DNA from: Sphaerolaimus hirsutus
Taxonomy: Eukaryota > Nematoda > Chromadorea > Monhysterida > Sphaerolaimidae
NCBI GenBank assembly: GCA_964036195.1
Contig: OZ038456.1
Span: forward strand, 2,666,001 to 2,730,000
Direction of reading: 5' to 3'
Length of the DNA stretch: 64,000 bases
Part shown: positions 16,301 through 58,988 of the stretch, one piece after another
Position numbering within the stretch: the stretch's first letter is position 1
How the letters are laid out: each line of letters opens with the position of its first letter
Made by a program: the position numbers and the translations under genes
The notes under the pieces: generated by a model
What the model was told of the DNA's origin: nothing
Seen by the model: only the letters and a program-made list of their open reading frames with translations
Database searches by the model: none

Positions 16301-17462
16301 ACTAAACTTGAGTATTTAACATTTCGTATTTTCTGTTTTTCTTCATCTAATATAGTTTATTACTTTTTGCAGGATGATTTGATCGCTTCGTACAAAGTGC
16401 GAAAAAAGGATGAAAGCACGTTGAAGTTGATGTTTTCGGATTTGAAAAAGAGCCAAAAAGTGTGCAGAGAATTGGACATGAGGTTCGCATCGTAGAGATT
16501 AAAAATAGCTAGCGATGGGCTAATAGCAGCTACAAATATATATACCGTATATTCTCGAATAAGTCCACAGTGGGGGTTTTTTTATCAGTCTTTTAGACTG
16601 GATGGATATTCGATGGAGTCGAGTAATTTTTTGGTCAGAATTTTGCATTGTTTTTTTGCGTAAAGGTCTCCCCACTTATCAAAATGGGGGTGGGTAGGTG
16701 AGTTTCGAGTAGGGTTCAAACGGGATTGACTTTTCGGGATCGGGATTGTTTTTTTGAGATTTCGGGATCGGGATTGAGGTCACGGGATCGGGATCGGGAT
16801 TGGCATTTTTTTGGCCAATGTTTTGGCATCCACAGTTGTTCACAAATATCTAAAAACACTGTTGGATGCCAGAAACGTGGCAAAAATGAACGGTGGGGGT
16901 TTGCGTTCACATTTTTGCATGCAAAACGTCGTTTTTTCACGTTTGATAATTACCACTAATTTTTTCCGGGATCCGGATCCCGGACTTTGGAGTTTCTCGG
17001 GATCGGGATCGGGACTGCTAAATCCCGGAATTTCACGGGATCCGGGATCGGGATCCCGTTTGAACCCTAGTTTCGAGTCGGGGGGTTATTTTCCCTCAGT
17101 CAAATTCAATTCCTAATCACAACATTGATCTTTCCAGAGAGGACGCATTGGCGACCCCTGTGGAAGTTTGGTACTGGCCAGCGGACCATTCTATATCTGT
17201 TGGCGCTGTGCCAAAAGACTCCTGTGATGACCCCGGGGGCTATTCTGCTAAGAAATCAGTGAAGAATGAGCATGATGAACTAGATTATGATTATCGTAGC
17301 TTGGACATTCCTGAGTGTTTGGAAAAAGTCACAGTTTACCTCCGTGCCGAGCATTTTTACTGCGTCTGGTGTGGTGCTCAGTTTAATGATTTGAATGATT
17401 TACAAAATTCGTGCCCTGGAGATTGTAGGCTTTCGCATGACTGTGATAATGAAGATTTGTGA
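13352..17462 (+). CDS. GPATCH11: G-patch domain-containing protein 11 homologue (6 exons)
   Basis: Exons are 13352-13486, 13560-13674, 13738-13841, 15357-15458, 16373-16482 and 17138-17462 (TGA), for 296 residues; the human protein is about 285. Phases 0,1,0,0,2 all join cleanly. The N-terminus has the acidic DDDDYMSMDML stretch. The G-patch is at about residues 83-103 (GFALMAKMGYKPGTALGK). It is followed by a charged helix and a C-terminal Cys-containing domain (YLRAEHFYCVWCGAQFNDL, then CPGDC), as in vertebrate GPATCH11. The family is nuclear; G-patch proteins typically recruit and activate DEAH-box RNA helicases, and the partner here is unknown. Introns 1 and 2 are short (73 and 63 bp) and free of repeats. 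Introns 3 and 4 were enlarged by hAT elements. Donors GTTGGT, GTTAGT and GTTCGC have T at +3. The identification is firm because every exon aligns in order. Confidence 0.95.
14063..15300. mobile_element. Middle hAT-type element of the nest (AGCTATCTATC type)
   Basis: CAGGGGTCTCC and GGAGACCCCTG ends, with perfect duplication GGTTCCTA. The AGCTATCTATCTATCCCGGA segments are typical of this family. Confidence 0.92.
14388..15107. mobile_element. Innermost hAT-type element of the nest, AAAAGCGCTTTT arrays
   Basis: TAGGGATGG and CCATCCCTA ends, with perfect duplication CTTTTAAC (14380-14387 and 15108-15115). Confidence 0.92.
15483..15926. mobile_element. hAT-type miniature element in GPATCH11 intron 4
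   Basis: Ends are CAGGGACGTATCCAGGATTT and CCTGGATACGTCCTTG. The 8-bp duplication GATGTTAC is perfect (15475-15482 and 15927-15934). Confidence 0.92.
16710..17069. mobile_element. hAT-type element with internal CGGGAT arrays (GPATCH11 intron 5)
   Basis: TAGGGTTCAAACGGGAT ends, with perfect duplication GTTTCGAG. Confidence 0.92.
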
Positions 17463-18592: not shown

Positions 18593-21500
18593 ATGACATC
18601 GATGTCTGGCAACAGAAACGTGAGGGTGCTGGTGGCGGGCGACGTGTGCGGTCGCGTGGCCCAGTTGTGCAGGAAGGTGACCGCGCTCGACAAGAAGGTT
18701 GGCTTTTGTTGGATGCTCACATACGTTTGGGGGCTTGAAATGTGTGCCAAAACGGTTTTTGACCAAAAAAAGAAGATTTTTGCCTGTCTGCAGACTAGTT
18801 TTCACTTGTATTTATAAGGTTGTGACTTCAGCTTAGTTATAGTTTCTGCCCGAATTCATGCCCCGTTTACTAGTGGAGCGGAAACCATGTTTCTGTCAAC
18901 TGAAAGAATTCTTACAGTTGACCAATGTTCAACCATTATGCGAATCGCGAAGTTTTTCTATATGAGCCTCGAGGAATATTTCTTCTGTCGCCGATTTAGA
19001 AATAAGAAATAAATGCCCTTTCCCCGATTTAATTCCCTTTCCCCAAATTTAAAAACTGCCATTTTCCTCTCTGAACTGAATTCACTCCAATCATTACAAT
19101 CCCAGACCGGTCCATTCGACCTACTTCTCTGCGTGGGCCAGTTCACGCCGCCTTCCACCGACACCGAAACCGACACCGACACCGCGACCGCAAAACAGTG
19201 GTGGTCGACGCTGCCCCTCCTGCCCGTGGCCACCTACATACTCAGCTCTGCGGATGACGTTCGCGCAGCGGCCGAGTATTTTCCTGGAGATGGATCGTCT
19301 TGTGAATTGGCTCCGAATTTGACGTATTTGGGGCAAAAAGGTTGGGTTTTAGCGATTTGGATTTGACAGTGTTCAAAGTGACTGATTGGCGCACCGCACA
19401 CTGCCTTTTCGAGTTCAGCGTTCGAACGTTTTTTGCCATCTGCTGAACTAAAAACGCGGAACCTCCAAAAGCGCTGAACTCCAAATTGTCCGGACGATTA
19501 AAATTAGGCGGTTTGTCAATTCACCAAGTGAAAAATTCGGACGATTTGGCGCGCTGAAATGATCTCGAACACTGAACTCCGATTTCAAACGCTGAACTGT
19601 GAAGATAATTCTGGAGTACTGGACGGAATTACAAGTGGATTGGTGTCGCTGGGCCATGCGGCCACGTACACTAGTAAATTATGGGGCAGTCCCAAGCCCT
19701 GTAAAGTGTAAAGTAAAGTAAAGTGTCAAATTTAAAGTCAAATTCAAAGTAAAGTGTCAATCAAAACACAAAAGAAAAGTTTTTATTACTGAACTTTGCA
19801 TGACAATTGACAGTTCACGTTGCATTTGACTTTAAATTTGACACTTTACTTTGCACTTTACAGGGCTCGGGACTGCCACCATAACTTCCCAAATATGTTT
19901 ACGAGTCAACATAAAGTCCCAGTACATCGTGATGTTCTATGTACCGTATTTCCTCAAATAACCCCCTCGAAATACCTACGTCACGAAGTACACCCCTTAA
20001 AATGGGAACTATGAATTTATTAGCCCCTCCCCAAAATTGAGTGTAAAGAGAACGTAAATAGAAAAGCTGCGGTTTGTGATTGTGTAGTGCAGAACACACA
20101 CTAAAACAATGCCTGTGATGCGTTAGAACAGGGTAGGGAATGTGTCTATAAACTCTTATACGTGGTGCTTATTGTTGCATTTTTCTACGTCTGTGTACGT
20201 TACAAACAACAAATTAGTACACTGGAAGTTCAAAAAAAATTTGGTGAAATAATAAGCCTTGTTTACCCCCCATCAAAATCTCACTCTGAAACAATCACCC
20301 CCGGGAGGTATTTTGAGAAAGTATGGTAGACATAAAATTTACAATGACAATGGAAAAACATTCTCAATAGATTTTTATGTCACCTCGTATAGCTCATATA
20401 GCTCCTTTCATTGAAGGTTTGTTAGCTTTCAAGTGTAGTTAGATAAATAATTACATATTGTATAAACAAATGGCTAGGTTTCAAACAGGATTGACTCAAC
20501 GGGATCAGGATTGTTTTTTTTTAATTTTTCGGATCAGAATTAGCATTCCAAAAATCTACCGACATGTTTTATTTTAAAAAAATGTATTAAGATTTTTTTT
20601 TGAAAAAGCCAGTCCGATCCCGAGATTTACAAAATCCCAATCCCGATCCCGAAAAAAAGCCCCGATCCCGATCCCGAGATTTTCAAAATCCCAATCCCGA
20701 TCCAAAAAAATCATAGATGCCATTTTTCCCAGTCTCGATTATGGTTGAAAAAAAAAGGTTTTTTTTAATGCCATGTTTTTAAAAAAAACAACCTTTTTTT
20801 AATTTTAAACGTTTTTTAATTTAAAAAAACGTTTTTTAAAAAGCTCCCAGATATGGCCCTGGGTCAACATATATAGGTATATCAGACAAGTGACAATACT
20901 CTTGTGATGTTATATATGACCATATATTGGCTGTGGAGCCATGGGATAGCCTTATAAGTGGTGATTTGTGTCAAAAATGCCCATTTTTTGTCAACATATT
21001 CATCTATCGCCTTATAGTCAAATGTTCGTGACTTCAAGTGAAGGTTGGCACGGAATAGTGATCAAACAAGGTTAAAAAGGAGGTCGTCACTTTGGGAGTG
21101 ATGTTACACACTGGAGGTACATGCAAGCACATTCCCTGAAATTTATATACTACAGCAACATATGATGGCTTATTTACCAATGGTAGCACATAGAAATGGA
21201 TGCTTTGGTGTTAAAAATGCCACAAAACCAATGAAAACAACCACCAATGTCAATTTGTGTGTGAAATTGCACGCTTGCGTGCAAAATTTTTGCAAAATAC
21301 ATAGTGCTTAGTACTAAAAATTTTGGCTGATGTTTTTTTTTAAAAACGTTTCGGACCTCATGTTTTTTTGATATTTTTAAAAACGTTGTTTTTTTAAATA
21401 AAACGTTTAAAAAACATCGGTCAACCCTAGTAGTATATAATATTCAGATAATGTGCTTCCATGTACCTCCAGTATGTAACATCACTACCAAAGTAACAAC

Positions 21501-24500
21501 CTTTTATAACCTTGTTTGATCACTATTCTGTGCCACACTTCCCTTGAAATCACAAACATTCAACTATAAGGTGATATAAACAGGGTGCACGCCAGGTCCG
21601 CCACCCAAATTCTGAGTCGGTGCCGGACGCCATATCTCCAGTTGTAGTGAGGGGATTTATTCGAAATTTTAAGGGCATATACTCGAAACCCACCCATTAC
21701 TATACACGGGCTGCGGAAGGTCGGCGACCCACCTGAGTGTGGGTCGCCGTATAAATGAATAGTTTTTTTGAAAAAATCGCTGTCCACGCGAGGTCCGCCA
21801 CCCGTTGTTTTTTTGATATAACGGGCTGCCAAACTAAAACTGTTGGGGGGAATTGATCGAAATTTTGAGGGGGTGTACACGACACTCCCCACTACTTTTC
21901 GCGGAAGGTCGAGCCTCCTGGCGACCCCCCTGAGAGTGGACCGCTGGAAAATAATATGATATTTTTGAGAATTCGCTGTCCAGGTTTGGCACTGGACAGC
22001 AAAAATTAAAATGACATTAGAATGTCCCTTGGAGGGCAATGTATACCACTGTAAAAAGTGTGTATTCAAAAAGCAAATTTTAAAATGAAGATTTGATCTG
22101 GTTCGAAAGTGTATTTGACACCCATACACAAGTTCCAGATTAAATTTCAATTTAAGTCAAATCTTTAATACACACTTTTAAAGCTGGTTTACGATGCCTT
22201 CTAGGAGATGATTTAAGGTAAAAATTCGCATAAACAACATTGCCCCAAAAATCAACCATGGAGGAGATTTGATGGGGTCACTGTAATGATGTCATCGATG
22301 ACATCATTCCAGCAACAAAATTCGCCTTGTGGGACAGCTTTTGTGTTGACCCCCATCAAATCTCCTCTATGGTTGATTTTTGGGGTAATGTTGTTTACAC
22401 GAATTTGTACCTTAAATCATCTCCTAGAACACATCGTAAACCAGCTTTAAAAGTGTGTATTAAGGATTTGACTTAAATCGAAATTTAATCTGGAACTTGT
22501 GTATGGGTGTCAAATACACTTTCATACCAGATCAAATTTTCATTTTAAAATTTGCTTTTTTAATACACATTTTTTACAGTGGTATACATTGTCCTCCAAG
22601 GGACATTCTAATGTAATTTTTATTTTTGCTGTCCAGTGCTAAACCTGGACAGCGAATTCTCAAAAATATCATTTTATTTTCCAGTGGTCCACTCTCAGGG
22701 GGGTCGCCAGGGGGCTCAACCTTCCGTGAAAAGTAGTGGGGGGTGTCGTGTACACCCCCTCAAAATTTCGATCAATTCCCCCCAACAGATTTAGTTTGGC
22801 AGCCCGTTATATCAAAAAAACAACAGGTGGCGGACCTCGCGTGGACAGCGATTTTTTCAAAAAAAACTATTCATTTATACAGCGACCCACACTCAGGTGG
22901 GTCGCCGATAGTGATGGAATGGCGCCATGGCGCTGGCGCCATTTGAGGGCGCCAAAGGGCGCCGCGCCATGGCGCCATTGGCGCTTGGCGCCCTTTTTCT
23001 GTGGCGCCCTTGGCGCCTGGCGCCCACATTCTGAAAGGCGCCATGGCGCTTGGCGCCCTTTTTCCGTGGCGCCTGGCGCCCTGCTTTTTAAGGGCGCCAA
23101 AAAGGCGCCAGCAGGGTTTCAAGGTGAGTGCTGTATAAATGGAAAAAAGATGAAAAACGCATTCATGGATGATCTGAATTTGCCAGAAAAATGGACGAAG
23201 TGGTGTGAGTGGGTATAAATATTTTGTGCAACGGTTCATCAGATGTGTCTGACAGATCAGAAAACGAGAATGATGGAACGTTGAACTTGCAAAATCATAA
23301 ATCAACGGATTCAAATCGTTGCAATTCCGTTTTTTGTCCATTTCGAGGAACATGATTGGAAAAGTCAATTTGAAGTGAATGGATTGTTGTCAAATGACAA
23401 TATCCATTGTGTTTGAATTGTCATGTGTATTTTACTCGAATGTTTTTGTTGCTAGTGTTGTCTTTGTTCATTACACCCGCGAGAACGCAAATTAAGTAGT
23501 GAATGCATGTACTAGGGTGCTGTAGAAACACTTTAAACACACGCAGGGTGTTGTATGCACTTATTCATCCTGGCGCCCTTGGCGCCTGGCGCCCTATTTT
23601 TCAAATGGCGCCATGGCGCCCTTGGCGCTTGGCGCCCTCTTTCCGTGGCGCCCTTGGCGCCTGGCGCCCGCTTTCCGAATGGCGCCATGGCGCCCTTTGG
23701 CGCCATTGGCGCCTGGCGCCCTTTTTTCTGGCGCTTTTCCATCACTACTTATTGATTTTCATCTTCAAAATCATTAAGTCATGTGTTTTATTGTTTATTT
23801 TCAGCATGTCGAGTATAATTAGATGTGTTCCGGGTCAACATGCGGGATGGGTTTACATGCGGAATAGTGCAGTGCCTATATATTGACGCAAGGCCATATC
23901 TGTGAGCTTTGAAAACAACGTTAAAGAACATAGCGTTGAAAAAACAACGTTTTTTCCCAAATGCCCTATCTCATTTTCTGGGAGCTTTGAAAAAAACCGT
24001 TAAAAAACATAGCGTTGAAAAAACAACGTTTTTTCCCAAATGCCCTATCTCATTTATATATGTATATATATATATATATTATTCAAACACTATTTTTATT
24101 TACAGTGATGTCAATTTTTTAAGCATTTTGCCAACTTATCATACAGGGAATTTTCGAAATTACCTGTCCCAGAAAAACTCAACCCACTGGTCCCTAATAT
24201 TAATCCCCCAATCTCAATCCCATTTGAACAGTAATCCCAATCCCATTTATACCCTACTTACTCTTGTTGCTTAATTCAAACTGTTCGGACGTTTTTTTTA
24301 AACAGGTTGTTGATGATTCCGGTTGTTGAAAGTTAGACGCGGAACTGCAAATTCATGCATTTGAGAAAATTTGCAGAAACTCAAAAATAAATGATTTTTG
24401 GAAAAACTTGTCTCTCTTCTTTTTTCAAGCTTAAATACCAGTCAAATACACATTCAAATTTTATGAATGTATCTCACATCATGAATGAGATACATATCAT

Positions 24501-27500: not shown

Positions 27501-30500
27501 GTGTTGGATTCGAACCTGATATGACCATTTCATCCAACCGCAGCGCGGAGCTGTGCGCGCAGCCGCCGGACGCAGGTGAATTTCCATACGCCGCCGCGGT
27601 ACAACGAGCTACTGAAAATCGAACAGCCAGGTATACGCCCGCCGCGGCGGCGGAAAATTCCGAGTCTCAGGGTAAAAAAGGTGCTGGAAAGCAGTTCTTT
27701 TTTGATATGGAAAGTGGGCCGGATAAGGAGGATAGAAGGAAGGGCGGACAGAAACGGAGAATGTGGGAGGGTGGGTTTTCGCATAGGATCGTTGTTGGCT
27801 TTCCAAAAATCTAAAGTAGTGATGTGAAAATCGCCAGAACAGTCAATGGCGCCAGAGCAAAATGGCGCCAAACGCCAGAAGCGCCATGGCGCCTTTCGCT
27901 TTGGCGCTAGCGCCATGCGCCAGCGCCAGGCATTTTGTTCCTGGCGCCGGTCCAAACTAGCGCCAAGCGCTATGGCGCTTTTCATGGGCATGGCGCCAAG
28001 CGCCAATGGCGCCACAGGAAAATAGCGCAAAGCGTCAAAGGCGCCATGGCGAGTTTTTATCATATTTCCAGATAAATTTAATCATATTTATTTTATGAGA
28101 CGGAAATCTATTACATTTTTTATATTTATTTATATTTTTTCTCTGCATTTCTTCAGAGACATTTAAATGATCCAATTGTTGATATATTTTCTGAGCTTGT
28201 AACAAATGATATTTTCTGAAAACCACCAATTTTTGTAACGCTAGTCGCCGTTTATACGTTGCACCGTCGCGACTTCTCTCGTCAACTGCCAATTCCCTGT
28301 CCACTCATTTTCTCTCCAAAATCACAGACCCTGACGCACCAACCAAAAATCCAAAACACCAAATCGACCCTCAGTCGTGCTGGTTCTGTCTGAGCAACCC
28401 CAAGGTGGAGAAACAGCTGATCGTGAACATCGGAGAATTGTGCTACTTGGCCATGCCCAAGGGGCCGTTGAATGATGGCCATGTGATGATACTCAGCATT
28501 TGTTTGTTTGGGTTTTATGGAGTTTTTTTGTGAATGAATTAATCTTGTTCTGCATCAATGCCCACGTTTGCTTAAACAGTGACATTGGACATGTTTTAAA
28601 TTGGTGAGGTATTCGAATTGTCTTTGGACAAATGTGTGTCAACTGGTCTGTGTCAACTCAGTTCACGGTTCACGTGTCGCGCAGCGATCTTCCAATGCAC
28701 TTGCTTTAATATTTATTATTCAACATTGCCGCATGTGCATTTGGAGATCGCTCCGTGACACGTGAAGCCGAAATCTGAGTTGACACGTACACAAGTAAAC
28801 CCGGTGCACAAGTAGCAAAAGTAGTAGAAGGGCGCCATGGTGCGGCGTACTTTGGCGCCCTCGAATGGCGCCATCCCATCGTTAATCTTGTGTATAGTTG
28901 TTGTTTTTGGAGGGGGGGTCGCAGGGGTTCAATATATGGGGTTTTTCAAGCTTAAGAAGGAAAAAGGGAGAAAAGTCGCTAGATACATATGTAGATAGCT
29001 GGAGCGTTTGGGGGGAACCCCATCCAACTCCCCATACTGAACCCCTGCAGTGCCCATGAAGACCCAGTGCTCAAGTATGGAGGCCGTACCTAAGCACCGG
29101 GTCTACATTGGCACCGGACATTGTTACTTGTGCACCGGGTTTACTTGTGCACTGGTCCTGTGTCAACTAGTGTGTGGGCAGCCATTAATCAGCGATGCAA
29201 CACGTACAGTCCAACGAGTTGCACAGCACTCACGCTCGTAGTTGACTAATCAAATGTCTATTCACTTTGACCGCAGCCCACGTTCAATCCTGGCTGGATG
29301 CGGACGAAGCGACCCGTATCGAGGTGGAAAAGTATAAATCGGCGCTGGCCCAAGCCGCCGCCAGCCAAAAATGCGGCTTGGTGACTTTTGAGCGCAACTA
29401 TAGGACGCAGCACATGCAAATCAATTGTGTCATGGTGCGGTTCATTTGTCAACTTTTTTAACGTTTTTTCTTTCTACCAAAGGGGTCTCCAAGATTTTGG
29501 CTCTTGCGGGGCTGGATAGATAGCTGAAAAAATTTGGGGGGGGGGGGGCTCGCGGGGGCAAAATATATAGGCTTTTTCAATGCATAGATGGCAGAAAAGG
29601 GGAAAATCGCTAAAAACAGGTTAAAAGTAGCTAAAATGGGCTGAAGATGGGTAAAAATAGGTATATAAACATGTGTATAGGCGAAAGCCACGACTTTGAA
29701 GGTGAAAAACTACAAAAATGTACAAAAATTTGCGATTTTGAGCTAACATTTGGGCGAAAGGTAGGTAGCTGGCCGATTTGGGGGATAGATAGCCAAAAAA
29801 TTGGCCTCCGAGATGGATAGATGGCTGGGGGATTTGAGGGGGGGCAGCCCCCCCTTAGGAGACCCCTGTTCTACTATAACCCTCTGAATTCACTTGACAC
29901 AGGTTCCTGATTCCATTGACGGCAAGGCATTTGAGGAAGCGTTACAAGCAGAGGCGGAAATTAGTCAACTTGAATTGATCGACCTTCCGCCTGATGCAAC
30001 TCTGAATGAAATTATGACATCAGGTAATGTGAATGGCTACTGGCCGGAAAACAGCAGGGGTTCATGGACATAAACACGTACCGTATTTCCGCGAAATACC
30101 CCCCTCGAACTAGGGTTCAAACGGGATTGACTTTTCGGGATCGGGATCGGGATCGGGATTCACTTTTTGAGATTTCGGGATCGGGATCGGGATCGGGATT
30201 GGTATTTTGAGATTTCGGGATCGGGATCGGGATTGGCCGGGATTGGGGTCACGGGATCGGGATCGGGATTGGGATTGGCATTTTTTCGGGATCGGGATTG
30301 GGGTCCTGGGAAAGAGATTTTTGTCACTGTTCTGGCCAGGGACGTAGCCAGGATTTTTGAGCGGGGGGGGCGGATTGTATACGGAGCCCGGCGAACGGGG
30401 GGGGCGGCGCCCCCCCCCCCCCTAAAATTTGACCCCTGTGTGAAAGGAATGGCGCCTTGGCGCCAGCGCCATTCGTAGGCGCCGCGCCATGGCGCCATTG

Positions 30501-32349
30501 GCGTTGGCAATGGCGCCAAATACCGATGTACATGTATGCATTTTACATACATATACAGCGACCGGGCGGGACAGATTTTGGGTGCTTTTTGTCCCAAACT
30601 ATAGGTATCAATGAAATATACGGTAGGGCGACGAAATGCGCGCTTGCGCGCAAAATTTTTCCTAGCTACCAACAAAATCGCTTTACGGAAGTGCCATTTC
30701 TGGCATAATTTTTTGTCCGACCCAGGAAGGGGGGGGGGGCGGCCGCCCCCCCCGCCCCCCCCCTGGCTACGTCCTTGGTTCTGGCATTCACAGTTGTTCA
30801 TCAAGGTCTCAAAACACTGTTAGATGCCAGAAAAGTGACATAAAATGGACGCTGGGGGTTTGCGTTCACATTTTTGCATGCAAAAATGTCATTTTTTCAC
30901 TTTTTATAATTTCCACTATTTTTTCCGGGATCGGGATCCCGGACTTGGGAGATTCTCGGGATCGGGATCGGGATTTGAAAGTTTTCGGGATCGGGATCGG
31001 GATTGGTATTTTTGGATTTCGGGATCGGGATCGGGATCGGGATTGGGGTTTCGGGATCGGGATCGGGACTGCTAAATCCCGGAATTTCACGGGATCCGGG
31101 ATCGGGATCGGGATCCCGTTTGAACCCTACCTCGAACCCCCCCCCCTCGAAATACCTCCCTCAAAATGGCCACTATGAATTTATTAACCCATCTCAAAAC
31201 CCACTCCCCCTCGTTTAACCTAGGGTTGGCCGATTTTTTAAAAACGTTTTTTATTAAAAAAAACGTTTTTTTTATTTAAAAACATGACATCCGAAATGTT
31301 TTTTTTATTAAAAACATCGACCCAAATTTTTAGTACTAAGCACTAGGTATTTTGCAAAATTTTTGCGCGCAAGCGGGCAATTTCACACACAAATTGACAT
31401 TGGTGGTTGTTTTAATTGGTTTTGTGGCATTTTGAGTATCAAAGTATCCATTTCTATGTGCTACCATGGGTCAATAAGCCGTCATTTGTTGCTGTAGTAT
31501 AAAATATTGAGGTAATGTGCTTCCATGTACCTCCACAGTGTGTAACTTCACTCCCAAAGTAACAACCTCCTTTTATAACCTTGTTTCATCACTATTCCAT
31601 GCCAAACTTTACCTGAAGTCATGAACATTCGACTATAAGGCGATATACGAACGCATCGACAAAAAATGGATATTTGACACAGATCACCACTTATAATGCT
31701 ATCCCATGGCTCCACAGACATTATATGGTCATATATAACATCACAGAGTATTGCCACTGTCTGATATACCTATATATGTTGACACAAGGTCATATCTGGG
31801 AGCTTTTAAAAAAAACGTTTTTTATTAAAAAAACATCGAGTTAAAAAAAACGTTTTTTTTTCCAACCCTAGTTTAACCCCCTCAAAATTCTCACTCCGAA
31901 ACAGTCACCCCCCGGAAATACGTTTATTTTAAAACGATCTTTTATTAAATAAACCAATTTAAAACACACTGGCTAAAAAAGCAATGGTAATTTGTTCTAT
32001 GCTTATTTATTGGGTATTTACGTCATACGTTTTACGTTAAAATAGACGTTTCCTACAATACATGACAAAATCTCGATACCCAAACATCCCCTCACCCCCA
32101 GGAGCGCCCTACTTCCACATGTCTCTGCCCAATGGATCCTCCTACCTAATCCGTCAAATGCGCGGCTTCCCGCTGCACTTCGGCCGGTCGGCCCTGTGCA
32201 ACGTGCGCGTGCTGAACGAACCCGACAAGGTGGACTGGAAGCTGTGCGACGTCGACGCGACGCAAATGCAACGGTTGGTGGACGGGATGAGGCAGGTTTT
32301 CAAGCCGTTCGAGTTTGTTAAGGATGATAGTGATGGGGATGATGGGTGA
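18593..32349 (+). CDS. CWF19L1: CWF19-like protein 1 homologue (10 exons)
   Basis: Exons are 18593-18697, 19106-19340, 26219-26450, 26643-26756, 27192-27320, 27544-27770, 28328-28501, 29277-29434, 29903-30023 and 32102-32349 (TGA), for about 580 residues; the human protein is 538. All ten phases agree. The N-terminus is the metallophosphatase-like fold ([31 protein letters not shown]). Exon 5 ([20 protein letters not shown]) has no ATG and is easily missed. Exons 7-8 form the CwfJ C-terminal domain 1, with CWFCLSNP and NDGHVMILS, then LVTFERNY. Exons 9-10 form domain 2 ([12 protein letters not shown] to KPFEFV). The family acts in late spliceosome disassembly and intron turnover (yeast Drn1, which works with the debranching enzyme Dbr1). 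An upstream in-frame TTG is ignored; ATG 18593 or the ATG at 18602 is the start. Intron 2 is 6.9 kb of nested transposons. Donors GTTGGC, GTTGGG, GTTGGT and GTTTGT are atypical. Confidence 0.96.
19683..19879. mobile_element. Introner-family copy in CWF19L1 intron 2
   Basis: Ends are GGGGCAGTCCCAAGCCCTGT and ...ACAGGGCTCGGGACTGCCAC. The internal repeats are of the GTAAAGTGTCAAAT type. The flanks TAT and CAT are not a clean duplication. Confidence 0.75.
20471..20716. mobile_element. Degenerate GGGATC-type element in CWF19L1 intron 2
   Basis: GGTTTCAAACAGGATTGAC start with decayed CCCGAT repeats. No target duplication was recognised. Confidence 0.5.
20736..21432. mobile_element. Degenerate copy of the AAACGTTTTT-type hAT element
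   Basis: Shares the unique core of 5271-5942 (TATATAGGTATATCAGACAAG in inverse orientation) and the right end GTCAACCCTA. The left end has decayed and no duplication was found. Confidence 0.65.
21722..22908. repeat. 1.2-kb near-perfect palindrome (foldback-type element)
   Basis: The left arm starts CGGCGACCCACCTGAGTGTG and the right arm ends with its complement. Matching blocks continue inward, including GTGTACACGACAC and GGTTGATTTTTGGGG, to a centre near 22296 (GATGTCATCGATGACATC). A partial extra arm lies at 21590-21721. It is in CWF19L1 intron 2. Confidence 0.85.
23559..23746. mobile_element. hAT-type element with TGGCGCC repeats (CWF19L1 intron 2)
   Basis: The right end is GCTTTTCCATCACTA. 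The duplication is CTTATTCA / CTTATTGA (7 of 8). Arrays of GGCGCCCTTGGCGCC. A related piece begins at 22910. Confidence 0.7.
24820..25051. mobile_element. CACACACTGG-type element (CWF19L1 intron 2)
   Basis: GGGCCCCCACACACTGG and GTCAACTAGTGTGTGGGCTC ends. Internal inverted GTCAACTGAAT arms. Confidence 0.72.
25497..26132. mobile_element. hAT-type element with TTTCCGTTTTCCG arrays (CWF19L1 intron 2)
   Basis: TAGGGTGTCAAA and TTTGACACCCTA ends, with perfect duplication GTTGTCAT. Inverse orientation of 6638-7245. Confidence 0.92.
27817..28050. mobile_element. TGGCGCC-array element in CWF19L1 intron 6
   Basis: Starts GTAGTGATGTGAAAATCGCC and is filled with GGCGCCA/AGCGCCA repeats. The right end has decayed. 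Confidence 0.6.
29480..29871. mobile_element. hAT-type element of the AGCTATCTATC type (CWF19L1 intron 8)
   Basis: AAGGGGTCTCC and GGAGACCCCTG ends, with duplication TTCTACCA / TTCTACTA (7 of 8). Confidence 0.8.
30111..31129. mobile_element. hAT-type element with internal CGGGAT arrays, carrying a nested hAT (CWF19L1 intron 9)
   Basis: TAGGGTTCAAACGGGAT ends, with duplication CCTCGAAC. It is interrupted by the element at 30337-30777. Confidence 0.9.
30337..30777. mobile_element. hAT-type miniature element nested in a GGGATC-type element
   Basis: Ends are CAGGGACGTAGCCAGG and CCTGGCTACGTCCTTG, with a perfect duplication GTTCTGGC. It sits inside the element at 30111-31129. Confidence 0.92.
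31221..31870. mobile_element. hAT-type element with AAACGTTTTT arrays (CWF19L1 intron 9)
   Basis: TAGGGTTGGCCGAT and CCAACCCTA ends, with perfect duplication GTTTAACC. Clearly homologous to 5271-5942. Confidence 0.92.
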
Positions 32350-34098: not shown

Positions 34099-34574
34099 GT
34101 GCCAGTCCCAGACCCTGTCAAATGTCAAATGTCAAGCAAATTGTCAAAAGTCATGTCAATTGCCCTGTAAAATGGCAAACTTCATTTCTTGGTGGATGCG
34201 CAAGACCCAAAAGGAGTCGGAAGATTATGGATATGAGATACACTGACAGGCTATGATGAAGTAAATGTAAAGGATTTTTGAGTTTGCTGTTTAGGCTGCC
34301 TAGCGTTAAGGGCATTGCCATCGAAGCATAAGCCCAGCCGCCATTGTGGTCAGCTTTTAGGGCGGTCATGTTCTATACAAGATGCGCGGGTTCGATTCCC
34401 GCCTGTGGCAGTGCAAATTTTGCACTCTTTTTTGGGATTTACTCTGGCGGTTCAAGTTATAGCGCGTATCACATGTGCCATAAGTACGCGATCACATGAA
34501 GCAGCATTCCAGGAATTGTCGACGTATGGCATTTTGCATAACATTTGACATTTTACAGCGTCCGAGAGTGGCAC
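34099..34574. mobile_element. Introner-family copy between CWF19L1 and the GPCR gene, carrying a tRNA-like segment
   Basis: Ends are GTGCCAGTCCCAGACCCTGT and ...GAGAGTGGCAC, flanked by CAG at 34096-34098 and 34575-34577. On the plus strand it would be a ready GT...AG intron. The middle holds a tRNA-like sequence at 34340-34410. Confidence 0.8.
34340..34410 (+). tRNA. tRNA-like sequence, probably a SINE head or tRNA pseudogene
   Basis: GCCATTG pairs with CTGTGGC over most of an acceptor stem. A perfect T arm (GCGGG TTCGATT CCCGC) contains the B box. The anticodon stem is imperfect, with an extra loop base, and the D arm is poor. It lies inside the introner copy 34099-34574. A working tRNA is unlikely. 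Confidence 0.4.
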
Positions 34575-38300: not shown

Positions 38301-41300
38301 CATTGGCGCCAAAACAGCTGTATATGTCTGTATTTTGCAGGCATATACAGCGACACAGATACGGAATTTAGGGGTTTTTACTGGCTCTGAGGCTGTCGAT
38401 ATTTGTCAACTGAAAATATATGTTGTGTGACGGTAACATGCGCGCTTGCGCGCAAAATTTTTTCAACCTGCGATAAAATCGTCGTCTGGAAGTGCCAATT
38501 CTGGCACATTTTTTGGCCCCACCCGGGAAGGGGGGCGGCCCCCCCCCTGGCTACGTCCTTGACAGACAGTGAGCATTCCCTTTCACTAGTCAAAACTGGC
38601 AATGTGGTATCTTGTCACACCAGCCTCAAGTTTTTGTTTGGAATGCTTATTCAGCTGTGTTGGGAATATTTATCACCACCAAAAATCAAATTTTAAACCT
38701 GAAAATGCTGATGTGCTGGTGTTTTGCAAAATAACCTAAGCAATTAGGTAGCTTACAAGTATGAATTGTAATGTCTGCCAATTATTATTTGTCTGATCCA
38801 TTTGATTCTTCATGTTTACCTAGATACCAATTTAGTTGTCGTGAACTTTATTTAAAGCACTTTATCAATCCTATTTACATATCAGTAAGCGGATGATCAA
38901 CCATGTTTGTGACCAAATGGAAGTATATGCCATTTGAAATATGCCTTGGTTTACCAAAAGAAAAATATCAAAATATCGAATATCATGTATATTTTCATAT
39001 TGAATATTGATATCGAGGGTCCATATCGTATCGATATCGAATATCGAGTTTCAGGAAAAAAAATCAAGTATCAATATCAAAAAGTTATATCGTCCCAACC
39101 CTACTCCACTGACCTCTCACTATGGGCCCACACACTAGTTCACATTGCAAAAAATGTCAAGTGAATGTCAACTAAATAACACAACTAAAGTTTTAGAAGC
39201 ATCACACTCAACAGACAAAGAAATTTAAATAAATTATCACGATAGAAACTTCACTGTGCTCTATCACATAGGAAGTTTTAAATTGAATAATTAACCAAAA
39301 TTTAGTCTAACAAATTTTGATGTCAACTAGTGTGTGATGGAGGTTGCCCTACAGGAAAGGAAGTGTAACTGGATGAGCTTTCCCACCTGCACCAGTAATA
39401 GTAGTCCTCCTGTTGTAAGTCCTCTTGCCAGAGGATTTTGGCGGGTGCCCACAACACCCAGACTACAACACAGACCATGTGACATGCAGTAGCACACAGC
39501 AGCAGCAGACCACTGGCCAATTCACGTGCAGCTGGTTCTTGCTCCGGTTTGAGCAATTGTCCTGCCACAGTGGTGAATGTATTGCAACAAGTAAATGTGA
39601 ATGGAGTGGTCAGTGGGGGTAGTACACTATTGTGCAGAATAGTTGAGACTAACCATTTTTAGAGAAAATAGAGGCTGGGGGTTCACCACACTTGTGCTTC
39701 TCTTTTTTCATACCTTGCCTTTAATATTTAAGTATTTATGTTGAAGTTAACGGATATGGAGACCACAAATTTCTGCTTGAATAATCCTCAAGTTCCAAGT
39801 GGAGTAAATTTTTTCCATAAAATGTGGAGTGGATATCATGCAAGACATGCGAAGTCTCACTATTTTCTGAAACACATAAAAACTGAAAGAAAATGTACCT
39901 ACTCACACAATATTTGAAAATAATAATCATCATGTGGTGGTTAATCCATGCTTGTGATCAACCCCCATGGTACACACTAGGGTTCAATTGGGACCAGTTT
40001 TTCAGACCAGGACCATAAATTTTCTTATGTCAGGACTGGGGTGTCAGGACTGGGACCGGGACTGGGACTGGGGTATCGGGACTGGGACCGGGACCACCTC
40101 AGTCCCAGAAATTTGCCGAACCATGTACTGGGACCATGTAAAAATAAGCTGTAATATGTGAGTGTGGTATATAATATCCAGCCAATGTGTTTCATGTAGT
40201 ATTTCCACTGTGTGGAACACCACTCTCAACGTATAAGCTTTTTCTGATAATACTTCTCATGTCTTGGCAGTACCACTGAAAAATTCCGGGACCGGGACTG
40301 GGTGGTCGGGACCGGGACTGGGGTGTTGGGACTGGGACCAGGACTCGGAGCGCCCCAGTCCTGACTTTTTGCTGAACCATGTACCGGGACCATATGGTAC
40401 ACACATACGGTATCCTAATCTTGTGCTCATTTAACATTTTGAATCTTTGCAAGGTCAAACATGCAGTGTGTGCAGTCTCAACTATTCTGCACAGGTGGTG
40501 TATTTTAGGGGGGAATTGGGGTATCGTGTAGTTGACACACTTTGAACAGCGGTGACAAGGCGTAGGTACCAGGGTGGTCTGGCGAGTCTGACGGCCTTGA
40601 CGAGGGCGACGGCGTGCGCGAGGGCGAGCAGCGAGCTGGAGCTGACCCAGCCGCAGGTGCACATGAGCGGCGAGCTGGACGGCAGCTGCAGCCCCTGGCA
40701 GCCGAACAGCAGCGCCAGCACGACGCACTGCGCCATGCTGAGCACCGGCGCCGACGCGCCCACGATCGGCGTGCCGTAGAACTTGACCAGCACCCACAGC
40801 GACAAGCCTGCGATTGCATCTGCTGTCCGAGCAAAGCATCACCTACTATTTATAGTTGTTTAAATGTATGTAAACTGGTGGAAAATTCAAACGAGAAAAT
40901 CGCTTAATTGTATTCTACAAATACCACATGCAAGCTGTTAGGCTTTCATCATTTGTGAGGGTGCCCCCAAGTATTTACTATATATACCCTAGGGGGCACC
41001 CCCCCGGGCCATCCTTGGTGCAGAGAAAAATATATATAACTATTCACATTTTTTCTGGAAAATATAAATGAGAATTCCATACAAATTGGGGCCAGAATTG
41101 GCTTGCTCGGTGTCAGGGGCAACATATCCGTACAGGGGCGTGCCATGGGGTGCCACTTGGCATGTATGTAGGCAAATGTTGTGGGTACCCCCACAACAAA
41201 TGGCAGCCATATTGGGCTGCACATTTCCCTGTGAGATTTTTATGAAAAATGAGGTACCTGATTTCTCATTTAAATGTTCTACCAGTTTACATTTACTCTA

Positions 41301-44300
41301 AAAATACATATTCTCTAGTAATGAGCAAATACATTTACATTTCTCTTGCAAAAGTACCTATACTCATATTTACTCATGTACTGTACTAAAGTACAGGAAA
41401 TGTGTTTCAGAAATTTCAATATGGGACATACAAAATTACTACACTGTTATTTAACAAATCAAGTGCTCAGATTAAATATTAAAAACACATCTGTCATGTC
41501 TTCCAGTGTAAGAATATAAAAAGTACTCACTTTTACATTTTCATGGCAAAAAGTTTTTTCACTTATGTTCACTCATAACATGAGTACAAGTAAAGAAATT
41601 ACTTTACATTAACTTTAACATTACAGTAAAGAACTTTACATTTTCTGTACTCAGGTAGTGAATAACAAGAAAGTATTTTACATTTGCATGAACTTTAAAA
41701 ATTCCAGTATATTTCACAACTCTGGTAGCTACCCACAGTTGCCACCATGTGAGCATTGGATAACACCTGTCCCACAAAAATCTAAATCACCCAGCATTGA
41801 AATTATCCACTGGCTGACATTTAGCTCTCAAGTTATCCATTTTTAGTTAAAAACACAGGTTTCTAAAAAATTTAACATTAGGTTGAGGGAGGGCACCTGC
41901 AGCTGCGATGCCCAGCACGCAGACAGCAAAGATGACATACAGCACACTTTTCGGCCTGGGGGCACTCAAGACCCTGTAAAAGACCCTGTAAAGTGTCAAA
42001 GACACTGTAAAATGTCAGGTGTCATGTAAAAGACCCTGTCAAATGTCATGTAAAAACCTTGTAATGTGTCATGTGTATCCAAATCTTGTCTTATCATACC
42101 CAAATCTTATGTTTTTGTATCCAAGTCTTTTTTTTTATGAAGATTTGAATACAAAAAAATAATATTTGGATATGATAAAATATGATTTGGATACACATGA
42201 CACATTACAGGGTCTTTTTCATGACATTTGACACTTTACAGGGTTTTTCACATGTCACATGACATTTTATGGAGTCTTTTACATGACATACGACATTTTA
42301 CAGGGTATTTGACACTTTACAGGGTCTTTTACAGGGTCTGGGAGTGGCACCTGAGCACGCTGCTTGGTTGAGATAATATGCAACTTGTCCTATCTTCTGT
42401 AGGTTTCCATTGCGAGGGACAATATTTGCATCTGTTTGTTGTGCCATTCAGATATTCGAATAGGTGAGTGCAGTTTTCGCAGCGACCGCAGCATTGTCCC
42501 AGACTTTCGAAGTAGCTCGCGCCTGCATCGGGATGATGGGATTAGGGATGGCCAGGGGCCAGTTCCGCAAGTGGAGAAGTGTAATGAAAAGTGAAAGAAA
42601 TAAATAAAAATAAAAACATAAAGAGTGAATTCTGACGTAGACAACATTGTTTCTGATAACGGTTGTGATGATGTAGTGGGAAATGTGTGAGTTTTGGCTT
42701 GCATCGGAACTTTGGAATTGAAAGTTTCCCCCTATTCAAAAAACTTCACATCAAAATTTCACTTCTCATTTCACTTTGCTTTTCACTTGGGAGTTTGGGG
42801 AGTTCTTGGTTGGATGTGGGAGTTTGGTTGGATTAATAATTGGATTGAATGTTGATTGGCAGTGTGCCAGCTTAGCTTCAATGTCTATTTTGAGAGGAAT
42901 GCAAAATGGTTTCCACAAAAATGTTTTGTCTGGTATTAGATAGACTCACCTGTACAAATTGGCATACATTGTGTCAGTTGCCAATATAGACCAGATTTTG
43001 TGTGCCACCAAGGCATTTCTGCAATTTTATCAGTAAACAGGTGCATTGTGGGTATATTGACCTCCAAATTTGTCCATGTCACATTTGTATTGTACCTGAA
43101 TGTTTCTGTTGTTTTTAGCAAAGGTGACATATTATAAAAAAAATATACAACCTGAAAACATAACAACCTACTCCCCAATGTAATTCCATTTTCCATTGAC
43201 AAATTGCTTTATCACATAGTTGGGTGTACCACTGGTGCTATCATTGTAGAACAGTCCATTGGAGGACATCTTCTGAAGGCCCCTAAAGCTGCAATTGATT
43301 TATGGCACATGTCAAGTTTCATTGGGTTTTTTTAGTGTTGGAAAAATGCGTGGCGTTATTTTGCTCTGGCACTTGGCACCATGGCGTTTTTGGTGCTTGG
43401 TGCTATTTTTGTGTGGCGCCAGAAACAAAATGCCTAGTGTCTGCGCATGGCGCTAACTCCAAAGCAAAAAGCGTCAGGGCGCCATTGTTTGCTCTGGTGC
43501 CATTGGCGCTTGGCACTTTTGTCCGTAAATACACCATGGCGCTGTTGGCACTTGGCACCGAAGTCCTGGCCTATTTTCCATCAATAGTTTAACTTCCAAA
43601 ATAGCATAGATTTAACACGTTTTACATATTTTTGTAAATACGCAAAGTTTCTAAGCCATCATTGGAATTTAAATGTGAAATACCTCGGGTCATTTTGTCG
43701 TACCATGCGACGTATTTCATCATAGACGATCGGCCCAGATACTGTCTCGCTAAAATTGTTACACGTTGCATTTGATAAACTGGTGTTGCAAAAGTTGTCA
43801 TGGAGGTTGCCCAGTGCCGCTGCAAGAATCATCACCTGTGTAGCCGCACGTGATTATGCACTCTGTGCGCATTTGATCCATAGTAAACTACTGGCAGATT
43901 TAAATGGGAATTTATGAAAATCTTTTAATTAAAAAACAACTATTATTTAAAATTCCAGGTAAGAATGGCCAGCGCTTTATTTAACTGCTTTTTGAAGTGC
44001 AAGGGCCCCAGCACTTTTAAAAAGCGCTGGTAAATTTTTTGTAGTACATAAATAGCACTAGGTAAATATTTTTTAAACGCAAGCACGCAATTTCACCTTT
44101 AAATTACCATTATTTTCACAATTTTTTAAAAGCGCTTTTTTAAGAAGCGGGTCGTTAAAGCGCTTTTTGCCTAAAAAGCATCCCTAATCCCACATGCAAG
44201 TAGTCAAAATTTTGTTTTATGTAGGGTGGAGGTACCCCCACTATATTACTAGAGAGACATCCTCCATTTTATGGCTAATATTTAAAAAAAATTGGCACAC

Positions 44301-47300
44301 TTGTTTTTCAGTGCTGTGGTGTGAGGGCCACATGACTCATGAGGGTGTCCCTGGGGATTGGTGAGTCACACAAAGACCTTGGTAGCTTGCATGGCTGCAG
44401 CATGCTTTCAAATTGATTTTTTTTAAATTCCCCTTTATAAAAATGCTACCAGTCTACATAGACTGAAAAAAAAAATTTTCAACTGACTGCATCGTAAATG
44501 AGTTGGGGCTTGCGGACAATCATTTCATCGCTGTCATCGAAATCCCCAATGAAAGTCTCGTTGCCATAGCATTTCGGCAAATTTTCTGAACAGTTGCATT
44601 GCATACCATGCCAAAACTTGACGTCATATTTGGATATCTGAATAAAAATAAGCTATTTACAGTTTTACCTCAAAATATTCCCCCCCCCCCCCCGGGGGGT
44701 GATTTATTCAGAGAGAACACTTATTAGAACATATTTACATAAATGCAATCTTTGAACGGACTATTTCTGTATTATTATGCGCCATGCAGCAGTTGTGCTG
44801 CCGCATAATGTGTTCTGCCATCCACGGGCTCAAAACTTTCAAATCATCCATCCTATTGAGTGGTAGATTTCCCAAATATTCACTAAATCCTTTCAGTTCT
44901 CTTGTGTCAACAAATGTGCCTATTGTGCCATTCAATATGTCCCTCAGGGAATCTGGTATCTGAAATTCAGTTATTGTCTTGTGGGATACCATGATAAATT
45001 GTGTAAATCACTGTTCATTTTGTTTAATCCATATACCACTTGCTCAATCATTGCTAATCAACTTGAATTTAAATCATCCTGTGATAAATAGTTTTCAATT
45101 TCCCAGATTGCAAAATGACAGATCATCTCATCCATATCAGTTCATTTACAATGAAATGAATTGAAAATTCATTTGAAACAATAGATACCTTCTTCAACAG
45201 TTTCCCCTGTCAAAAGTGATTTTCCATGGGAACTATTGATAATAGAAAATGTACCCCAGATTTTGACCTCCACGGGGGCTCTCAGATGGATAGCGATTCC
45301 CCCAGAGTGATACAGTAAATCCTCAAATAGCCCTTCGAAAAACTACCCCTTCAAACCCCTTCTACCCCCCTCCACCCCCTTCTACCCAATGACTGCCCCG
45401 GATAGCTGAATGGGGTCGGTAAAAATAACCGACTTGAATACCCCCCCCCTCTTTGATGCGTGAAAAAGTCCCAGTAGACCCCTGTATATGAGGATTTATG
45501 GTAGGTTATTGAGCTGTAGAGGGTACTCACCTTTATGTCAGCGCCGTCAACCCATACAAATTGGAATTGTAGTCTGAGGTTATTGTCATTGTTTGCATAT
45601 CGACGTCTTTGCTCCCGTTGCAGTTCAAAGAGCATATTTTGTGCGGTATACCAGTGCACAAACAGCAGAATTACCGGTGCCTGGAAGGAAAGTATCATGT
45701 AATTTTGTCCAACATGAATGTCGATATTATATGTATATACTATACACCAACAGAAGGCCAGGGCCCAGTTCCGCAAAATGAGAAGTGAGAAGTGAAATGG
45801 CAAATGCGAAGTAAAAGCGCAAAGGCCAAGTGAATTGGCAAGTGAAATGGCAAACGCAAAGAGAAATTACTTTTTATTTTTTTACTTCGCTTTTGCCAAT
45901 TCACTTGCCGTTTCACTTCACCTTTGCGGGGTTTATAAGTTCATAGTGCCCATTTTGAGGGGGGGGGTATTTCGAGAAAATACGGTAGATATATTTTTTT
46001 GCAGCTGACCTGATGCTTGATGTAAAATCTGCTCTTGATGTCATCCCATCGGCCATCTGACACTTGAAGGAAATTCTCAATGCAAATTTGCTTTGAATCT
46101 CTGTCTCGAGTCCTAATTATTTGTTCAAATGACCTTTTTAAGCCGACCCCATACTCGCTGGTTTCATAGATCACACTCACATGGCACCACTTCATTGCGA
46201 TGAGTAAATCATGCACCATGCTTGCCTGAGTTGAGACTAGAGATGTTAAAAGCGCCAGAACTTTGGCGCCAAGCGCCAGAACTTTGGCGCCAAGCGCCAA
46301 AAGCGCCATTGTGCTTTTCCGACCCCTAGCGCCAAGCGACAATGTCACCAGAGCAAAATGGCGCCAAGCGCCAGAAGAGCCATGGCGCTTTTTGCTTTGG
46401 CGCTAGCGCCAAGCGTTATGGCGCTTTTTGATTTGGCGCTAGCGCCAGCGCCATGGCGCTTTTACATCACTAGCTGAGACTAGTTTTTATTCATGTGATT
46501 AACGAATGTGATAAACGTCAACAGCTTTCCCTGAAGTAGTTCTTATACTTTTTCGAAAGATATATGCATTGGAAGTATAATACCACATACAATTTTCTAC
46601 TGACAAAATGCTAAAAAACTAAAGTAAACGTTCATCCCAACTCAGCAATTTTTTGAGATAGCTAAAATGAGTACTAGGTAGGTAGGTACTCAGTATCCGA
46701 GTATGCGTACTTTTTACATGAAATGAATGTTTTCACAGTCGAGAAATTATATTTCTATGCATTTCCGTTTAACCCTTCCGTTGTCTAACCTGATAGTAAT
46801 CAGGGGGCAGTCCCAAGCCCTGTAAAGTGCAAAGTAAAGTGTCAATCAAAACAAAAAAAGGAAAGATTTTATTACTGAACTTTGCATGACAATTGACACT
46901 TTACTTTGTATTTGACTTTACATTTGACACTTTACTTTGCATTTGACTTTACATTTGACACTTTACCTTACACTTTACAGGGCTTGGAATTGCCACCAGA
47001 TGGGCAGATCCTCAGGAAAAATGGGAAGTGATCCTGATCATCAAGCGTCGACGAACTTTCATCTGTTCCAATAAGGGGAATGCAGAATCCCTGTGATTTT
47101 TATAATATGGTTGGCGGTATGTATTTTAGGTAATACGTACTTGTTAATTTACCATATTTCCTCGAAATACCCACCTCGAATTACCGCCCCCCTCGAAATA
47201 CCCCCAGGTCTTTTCGAGCTGAAGAAAAAATAAACTCCCCCCTCGAACCCCCCCCCCCCCGTCTAGAATGAGGTATACTCGGCGTACATGATACTCTGCC

Positions 47301-57030: not shown

Positions 57031-57354
57031 TGGCAATCCCCCCTGTAAAGTGTAAAGTAAAGTGTCAAATGCAAAGTCAATTGTCAAAAGTAAAGTCAAA
57101 TGTCAATTGTGTATCCAAATCTTATTTTTCGACACAAGATTTGGATACAAAAACATAAAGTTTGGATAAGAAAAATAAGATTTAGATACACAATTGATAC
57201 TTGACTTTACATTTGACACTTTGCGTGACAATTGACATTTGACTTTGCATTTGACTTTACATTTGACACTTACTTTACATATGACATTTGACATTGCATT
57301 CTACTTTACATTTGACACCTTATTTTACACTTTACAGGGCTTGGGACCGCCCCC
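57031..57354. mobile_element. Introner-family copy upstream of the complete GPCR gene
   Basis: Ends are TGGCAATCCCCCCTGTAAAG and ...ACAGGGCTTGGGACCGCCCC, flanked by ATG at 57028-57030 and 57355-57357. The interior carries inverted GTAAAGTGTCAAATG blocks. Confidence 0.75.
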
Positions 57355-58686: not shown

Positions 58687-58988
58687 GTGCCAATCTCAGA
58701 CCCTGTAAAGTGTTAAGTAAAGTTTCAAATGTCATGCAAAGTGACAATTGTCATGACAAATGTAATGTAAAGTGTCAATCGTCATGTAAAGTGTCAATTG
58801 TGTATCCAGATCTCATGTGTTTTTTGGATCCATATTTTATTTTTTTTGTATCCAAATAATACTATCTCACATAACATTTGCATCCAAAACATAAGATTTG
58901 GATACATAATTACAGTTTGCATAACATTTGTCATGATAATTGACACTTTGCCTGACAATTGACACCTTACATAGTCTGGGACTGGCCC
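58687..58988. mobile_element. Introner-family copy at the 3' end of the partial GPCR paralogue
   Basis: Starts GTGCCAATCTCAGACCCTGT and ends with a GTCTGGGACTGGCCC block. The flanks are GTG (58684-58686) and CTG (58989-58991). On the coding strand the terminus facing the exon is GGGCCA rather than GTGCCA, so it cannot act as a donor, and the reading frame runs into it. Confidence 0.75.

Follow-up and report, generated by a model that had tools for sequence, protein, structure and literature searches.

A palindromic MITE with a CWG target duplication as a putative introner in a class C GPCR gene

The window, which is the whole stretch of 64,000 nucleotides that was analysed, carries a class C GPCR gene on its minus strand. 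As the original prediction had it, the gene belongs to this receptor class: profile searches returned ANF_receptor (9.9e-12) and 7tm_3 (1e-6), the latter at 29 bits, under the Pfam curated cut-off of 33.5, with a match that begins just past the join described below. The exon encoding the cysteine-rich linker (42351–42522) was placed by its reading frame, with its start set by eye, and ends in phase 2. The exon in which TM1 begins (41897–41955) was placed by frame and by the 7tm_3 match of the joined exons, with its end set by eye at its own donor, CAG/GTGCCCTCCC. Between them lies a single palindromic element of 392 nt, GTGCCACTCCC...GAGTGCCCC, at 41959–42350, with CAG at either side. One CAG (42351–42353) closes the upstream exon; the other (41956–41958) would form the 3′ end of the proposed intron and provide its AG acceptor. 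On the minus strand the order is ...GCGTGCTCAG / GTGCCACTCCCAGACCCTGT...ACAGGGTCTTGAGTGCCCC / CAG / GCCGAAAAG, and the proposed intron, GT...CAG, comprises 41959–42350 together with 41956–41958. An interval of 41955–42351 had been predicted; the observation stands, with the coordinates moved by a few bases.

Taking out the element and one CAG leaves an open frame, ...DRTSCILSQPSSVLR / PKSVLYVIFAVCVLGIAAAG, that runs into TM1 of the receptor, so that the predicted element with inverted repeats, CAG duplication and restored frame is borne out. Read unspliced, the frame stops after six element codons (ORF ending SSVLRCHSQTL). Folded as RNA, 41940–42370 (431 nt) forms one long hairpin whose minimum free energy is −229.5 kcal/mol, where shuffled sequences average −90.4 (z = −23.6); this is far outside chance. 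This linker copy has the GT donor and AG acceptor of a canonical U2 intron (GT...CAG). By eye, its donor GTGCCA is a poor fit to GTRAGT, and the 3′ end of the proposed intron has no long pyrimidine tract. Because CAG/GT...CAG/G is also the usual splice consensus, the single CAG pair is weak evidence at this copy; it is the family data that make the case for an introner at 41959–42350. The next intron of the gene, from 41896 down to 40808, likewise begins CAG/GTGCCCTCCC and may, judged by eye, be an old, decayed introner.

A second copy, from a related subfamily (GTGGCAATTCCAAGCCC...GGCTTGGGACTGCCCC), lies in the same gene at 46804–46996, also on the minus strand and flanked by CTG on both sides. 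It interrupts the ligand-binding domain between LRICPS and DYYQ, and the ANF_receptor match (PF01094, 9.9e-12) extends across its join. Upstream of it is a ligand-binding-domain exon (46997–47090; sequence and profile match, start by eye), and downstream is the remainder of that exon (46790–46803), which includes the right CTG (46801–46803) and is followed by the donor GTTAGA. Canonical GT-AG ends are absent from CTG/CTG members such as this one. Elsewhere in the window, 62582–62881 matches the GPCR stretch 40535–40834 at 93%; the TM1 exon is seemingly absent beside it, and it is perhaps a partial duplicate.

Searches of the genome (348 Mb, 762 contigs) with at most one mismatch found 8,086 GT-type ends (4076+4010) and 7,256 GG-type ends (3618+3638), and control patterns made of the ends read backwards had no occurrences in the same genome. 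Family members have the form GTGCC...GCCCC, with inverted repeats and a 3-bp CWG duplication; read inward, one end is GGGGC and the other GTGCC. Among 82 end-paired copies, drawn from fetched loci and the window, the end types were GG/GT in 59, GT/GT in 7, GG/GG in 1 and other in 15. Most of those loci had been picked because they carried a GT end or resembled the linker copy, and the near-equal genome-wide counts are therefore the better evidence for asymmetric ends. The 3-bp flanks are identical in 46 of the 82 (23 CTG, 22 CAG, 1 ATG) and differ in 36, and the duplicated CTG and CAG triplets give CWG as the target. Flanking GC is highest at the insertion, 0.53–0.54 within 50 nt and 0.39 at 300–400 nt (50 copies, some duplicates), as for exons.

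By these sequence features the family is likely to belong to NuwaI (PHIS/Harbinger). NuwaI transposons are described from 16 animal genomes (PMC4482050), with a CWG target duplication and inverted repeats that usually start GGG. The window family shares the CWG duplication; one of its ends starts GGG and the other, unlike NuwaI, GTG, and, again unlike NuwaI, it behaves as a putative intron.

Four more family copies lie in the window, at 1608–1768, 3688–4309, 34099–34574 and 58687–58988, with GT-strand flanks of CAG/CAG, CTG/CTA, CAG/CAG and GTG/CTG, respectively. The second subfamily, whose ends resemble G(G/T)GGCAGTCCCAAGCCCTGT, is found at 19683–19879, at 46804–46996 inside the GPCR gene and as an end at 57353. 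The window also holds a large inverted repeat at 21763–22865 (515-nt arms, 95%, 73 nt apart) and short arrays of CGGGAT units at 7460–7672, 16734–16812, 30101–30265 and 30951–31069.

By homology, ten copies could be assigned to genes, seven in all. Matches cross the join in eight of the ten, where frame and homology indicate, at the protein level, that removal restores the pre-insertion coding sequence; joins are exact (element plus one triplet) in nine. Two copies lie in OSCP1 (C1, about 3.59 Mb), where a match of 5.4e-61 aligns residues 17–189 to profile positions 1–173 and spans both joins. The frame of OSCP1 is otherwise open over 250 aa (exon model, 250 aa), with three further GT-AG introns by eye. 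One copy lies in an mGluR-like receptor (L037/L040, C13; 1.1e-28, residues 2–92 to profile 9–99), and two in chondroitin synthase (CHGN, L089), both with matches across the join (copy 1, 1.6e-12; copy 2, 6.9e-12). The B4GALT match (L028, 3.7e-9) is ungapped at the join. The match in a C2H2 zinc-finger gene (L077, 1.7e-5) also crosses the join, which is inexact: the right side reads GCCCC-TTG-CAG, with three extra bases (TTG) before the final CAG. Two cases are weaker, namely an LRR gene (L059), whose match (1.4e-5) stops at about the join, and the linker copy itself, where the match begins just past it. Besides the second GPCR copy, these make up the anchored set. All four other complete introns read by eye, three in OSCP1 and one in the GPCR gene, are GT-AG.

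All ten anchored copies point the same way, with the GT end 5′ relative to the coding strand; six of them were picked without a sense reading (the matches in the 66-segment batch described next, the mGluR-like gene and the linker copy). That profile-search batch, which contained CHGN copy 2 and the LRR gene, covered 66 of 132 joined segments (37 sense, 29 antisense) drawn from 27 of 37 copies, 18 of them with both strands, and matches occurred in sense segments only, with none in antisense. For B4GALT and the other profile tests (OSCP1, mGluR-like, CHGN copy 1, GPCR and C2H2) sense readings were chosen, so that antisense exons could be missed. A separate scan took in 105 open frames on both strands; its table does not specify which members matched. 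In a profile search of ten proteins, L061, L064 and L085 had no family match and L078 had weak ones only (best 0.0078), and the L061 and L085 segments had no hits in a PDB search.

An empty site is available for the mGluR-like gene. The C13 gene reads GREL/element/SYILL, and its paralogues L035 and L036, on C2 and C3, read RELSY and RELCF uninterrupted; an intron was therefore gained there. This comparison applies to the mGluR-like gene and not to the linker copy. Genes such as those for mGluR-like receptors, chondroitin synthase and B4GALT suggest that the host is an animal. Runs of six TTAGGG or six TTAGG had no occurrences in the whole assembly, which may lack telomeres or have a different telomere type.

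To gauge the exonic share, a codon model was applied at 50 loci; these surrounded 51 exact hits, taken from the first 52 in the list for C1 with one hit skipped. The loci contained 57 copies. The right end could be recognised in 50 of these, and scores were obtained for 49, with the tested locus excluded from the model. Sixteen were called sense, 4 antisense, 8 ambiguous and 21 non-coding, so that many family copies lie outside exons. Among the sense calls, L073 + 1809 is a mis-pairing. As to the antisense calls, copy 1 of L077 is contradicted by the sense-strand zinc-finger frame, L045 has GT at both ends and hence no direction, L068 is a mis-paired copy, and L069 is merely weak; not all four are explained. 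Use of the codon model by itself for strand was rejected: a first version called OSCP1 copy 1 antisense, and a better-trained version was used. Extrapolation from this sample suggests an exonic share of one quarter to one third and some two thousand such introns genome-wide.

Taken together, the sequence comparisons make it very probable that the intron at the linker was created by an introner, a non-autonomous MITE of NuwaI/Harbinger type inserted into a coding exon, which would be spliced out of the transcript. Similar introns at non-homologous positions, with the similarity reaching both boundaries, are seen in the end counts and in the ten anchored insertions in seven genes, one of which has three extra bases. 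The predicted introner, with a GT donor from the first bases of the element and an AG from the duplicated CAG, is upheld by the tests possible on DNA: exact boundaries, CWG duplication, near-equal GT and GG ends, and same-orientation copies splitting conserved proteins.

Which target triplet, CAG or CTG, stands on the coding strand is set by strand chance, and about 45% of insertions leave CTG rather than CAG; counted exactly over the whole genome, left flanks were CAG in 1418 cases and CTG in 1183 (p=4e-6). A CAG acceptor had been predicted, which holds for the linker copy and overlooked this CTG half of the family, its more unusual part. In the codon-model sample, CTG/CTG accounts for 9 of the 16 sense-coding calls and CAG/CAG for 4, and homology places CTG/CTG insertions at OSCP1 copy 2, CHGN copy 2, B4GALT and the second GPCR copy. 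As read from their sequences, exact removal of CTG copies from a GT donor would require them to be GT-TG introns. Internal GT-AG pairs were rejected for these copies: with GT at 0, 6 and 18 nt from the start and ACAG 16 nt before the end, all combinations in the common end sequence shift the frame, a result reasoned from the sequences rather than scripted and limited to that end sequence, with deeper AGs outside its scope.

The flanks suggest that some CTG ends have been altered. In a subset of copies with exact ends and a length of about 162–192 nt, left/right flanks were CTG/CTG in 33, CTG/CAG in 15, CAG/CTG in 7 and CAG/CAG in 67. If the left, exon-side triplet is taken as the original, the right-hand triplet is CAG in 15 of the 48 CTG-left copies and CTG in 7 of the 74 CAG-left copies (Fisher p=0.0034); the plain comparison of 15 v 7 gives p=0.13. 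Both mismatch rates are high, so point mutation may not be their only source; ectopic recombination or loose target cutting may contribute. A left CTG with a right CAG is seen in three copies read as exonic, in the mGluR-like gene, at CHGN copy 1 and at L078 (where the reading comes from the codon model only); each retains CTG in the exon and has CAG at the intron end. Two CTG/CAG copies from the same sample, L063 and L076, are non-coding by the codon model. The excess of CTG-to-CAG over the reverse is suggestive of selection for AG, a claim that does not include confinement to exons.

There is about an even chance that one animal family is giving rise to two predicted kinds of intron according to the strand of the CWG hit, with a host that tolerates both, many new GT-TG introns, and selection turning the intron-side CTG into CAG while the protein is left untouched. 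If true, intron birth followed by splice-site repair would be visible within one genome. It is possible, if rather unlikely, that CTG-type copies are instead left unspliced at TG, as harmful gene-breaking insertions carried by rare or heterozygous alleles, and that only CAG-type copies such as the one at the linker work. Such a reading draws on human TG acceptors, which PMC2374985 describes only as alternatives near an AG and not as constitutive sites, and on both the genome-wide surplus of CAG over CTG left flanks and the surplus of right-hand CAG on CTG-left copies. It has to contend with the predominance of CTG/CTG among the sense-coding calls and with OSCP1, whose long frame is otherwise open and includes the three further GT-AG introns. 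Furthermore, median divergence from the nearest sampled relative is 0.088 for exonic-labelled CTG/CTG copies and 0.097 for CAG/CAG, in a small list into which some palindromic copies were entered on both strands; the former are not much less diverged and would not clearly be younger.

That an ordinary MITE landed in a pre-existing linker intron, with a coincidental agreement of element ends and exon ends, is improbable. By eye, introns are present within or close to the linker in three class C paralogues, and that of L040 lies a few residues away in the same phase, so that an older intron at this site keeps a small probability; CAG at both sides is, again, also splice consensus. Against this, both boundaries equal the target duplication of the family to the base, and the same agreement recurs at the second GPCR copy and at the OSCP1, mGluR-like, CHGN and B4GALT copies, while the intron positions of the paralogues differ from that at the linker.

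Ciliates excise internal eliminated sequences from DNA. A comparable somatic excision by transposase, or structure-driven RNA processing outside the spliceosome, would account for CAG and CTG both working and would fit the near-perfect hairpin, the CTG/CTG copies with no AG at the boundary and the frame restored in 9 of 10 anchored copies by removal of the element and one CWG, yet it is very improbable, as direction should not matter to DNA excision whereas the GT end is 5′ on the coding strand in 10 of 10, the genome has nearly as many GG as GT ends, and the CTG-to-CAG excess fits a preference for AG; orientation-free DNA excision was rejected because the orientation of the anchored copies is one-sided.

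The favoured explanation, intron creation by an introner, can be set out as a sequence of events. A MITE would insert into a coding exon and duplicate its 3-bp CWG target. Placed with its GT end first on the coding strand, the element supplies the GT donor, and the target copy after ...GCCCC forms the final three bases of that putative intron. The spliceosome would then remove the element with the right-hand target copy and restore the pre-insertion mRNA, with the near-perfect hairpin presumably pulling the two ends together. Ancestral ends were probably GGG...GGG, and the change of one to GT would have made the MITE survivable in exons. Insertions would start about half as GT...CAG, like the linker copy, and half as GT...CTG, because CWG is CAG or CTG depending on strand. 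The GT...CTG copies are probably spliced at the TG acceptor, at least enough to persist, and some may later change to CAG.

The origin of new introns is an old open question, and here one family has thousands of recognisable copies in a genome whose animal genes are of the ordinary multi-exon kind. Its CWG target provides a natural comparison, in which the same element in the same genome receives an AG or a TG acceptor by strand chance. Such a comparison allows the tolerance of the spliceosome for a non-AG 3′ end to be measured, and the speed with which selection mends it. A route from harmless MITE to introner is also suggested, namely a change of GG to GT at one inverted-repeat end. The family, taken in the original prediction to be undescribed, may be so; full-text literature searches gave, among the matches listed, no title on it.

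Introners had been thought established in a few algae, fungi and other lineages; they are less rare than that, since Gozashti et al. (2022; PMC9860276) report them in 175 of 3,325 genomes, animals included. Among animals and land plants, the same survey places them in only two groups, both animal, and its families range from 5 to >2,000 copies. As there described, the introners of Micromonas, Aureococcus and others share with the window family a non-autonomous nature, in some cases inverted repeats and target duplication, and many copies. Similarly, one splice site is borne by the element and the other comes from the duplication, and removal mostly keeps mRNA length. Unlike these, the present family has a probably animal host and a CWG target, which yields AG in only about half of insertions. 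GT-TG introners have a precedent in Micromonas, where PMC3879977 gives classes IE-B and IE-D, with 25 and 6 members, GT-TG splice sites; here, as predicted from DNA, the TG is instead set by the strand of the CWG hit, and the family, a large one, would yield GT-AG introns too. In the tunicate Fritillaria borealis, according to PMC13326754, <10% of introns are GT/AG, and introner activity is one possible source of weak splice sites. An animal spliceosome that accepts unusual intron 3′ ends is what is proposed for the host of the window as well, with the difference that the four other introns read by eye here are all GT-AG. The kind of element, an introner, is already known; the variant seen here would be a family of Harbinger type that targets CWG, probably has an animal host and is predicted to use two kinds of acceptor.
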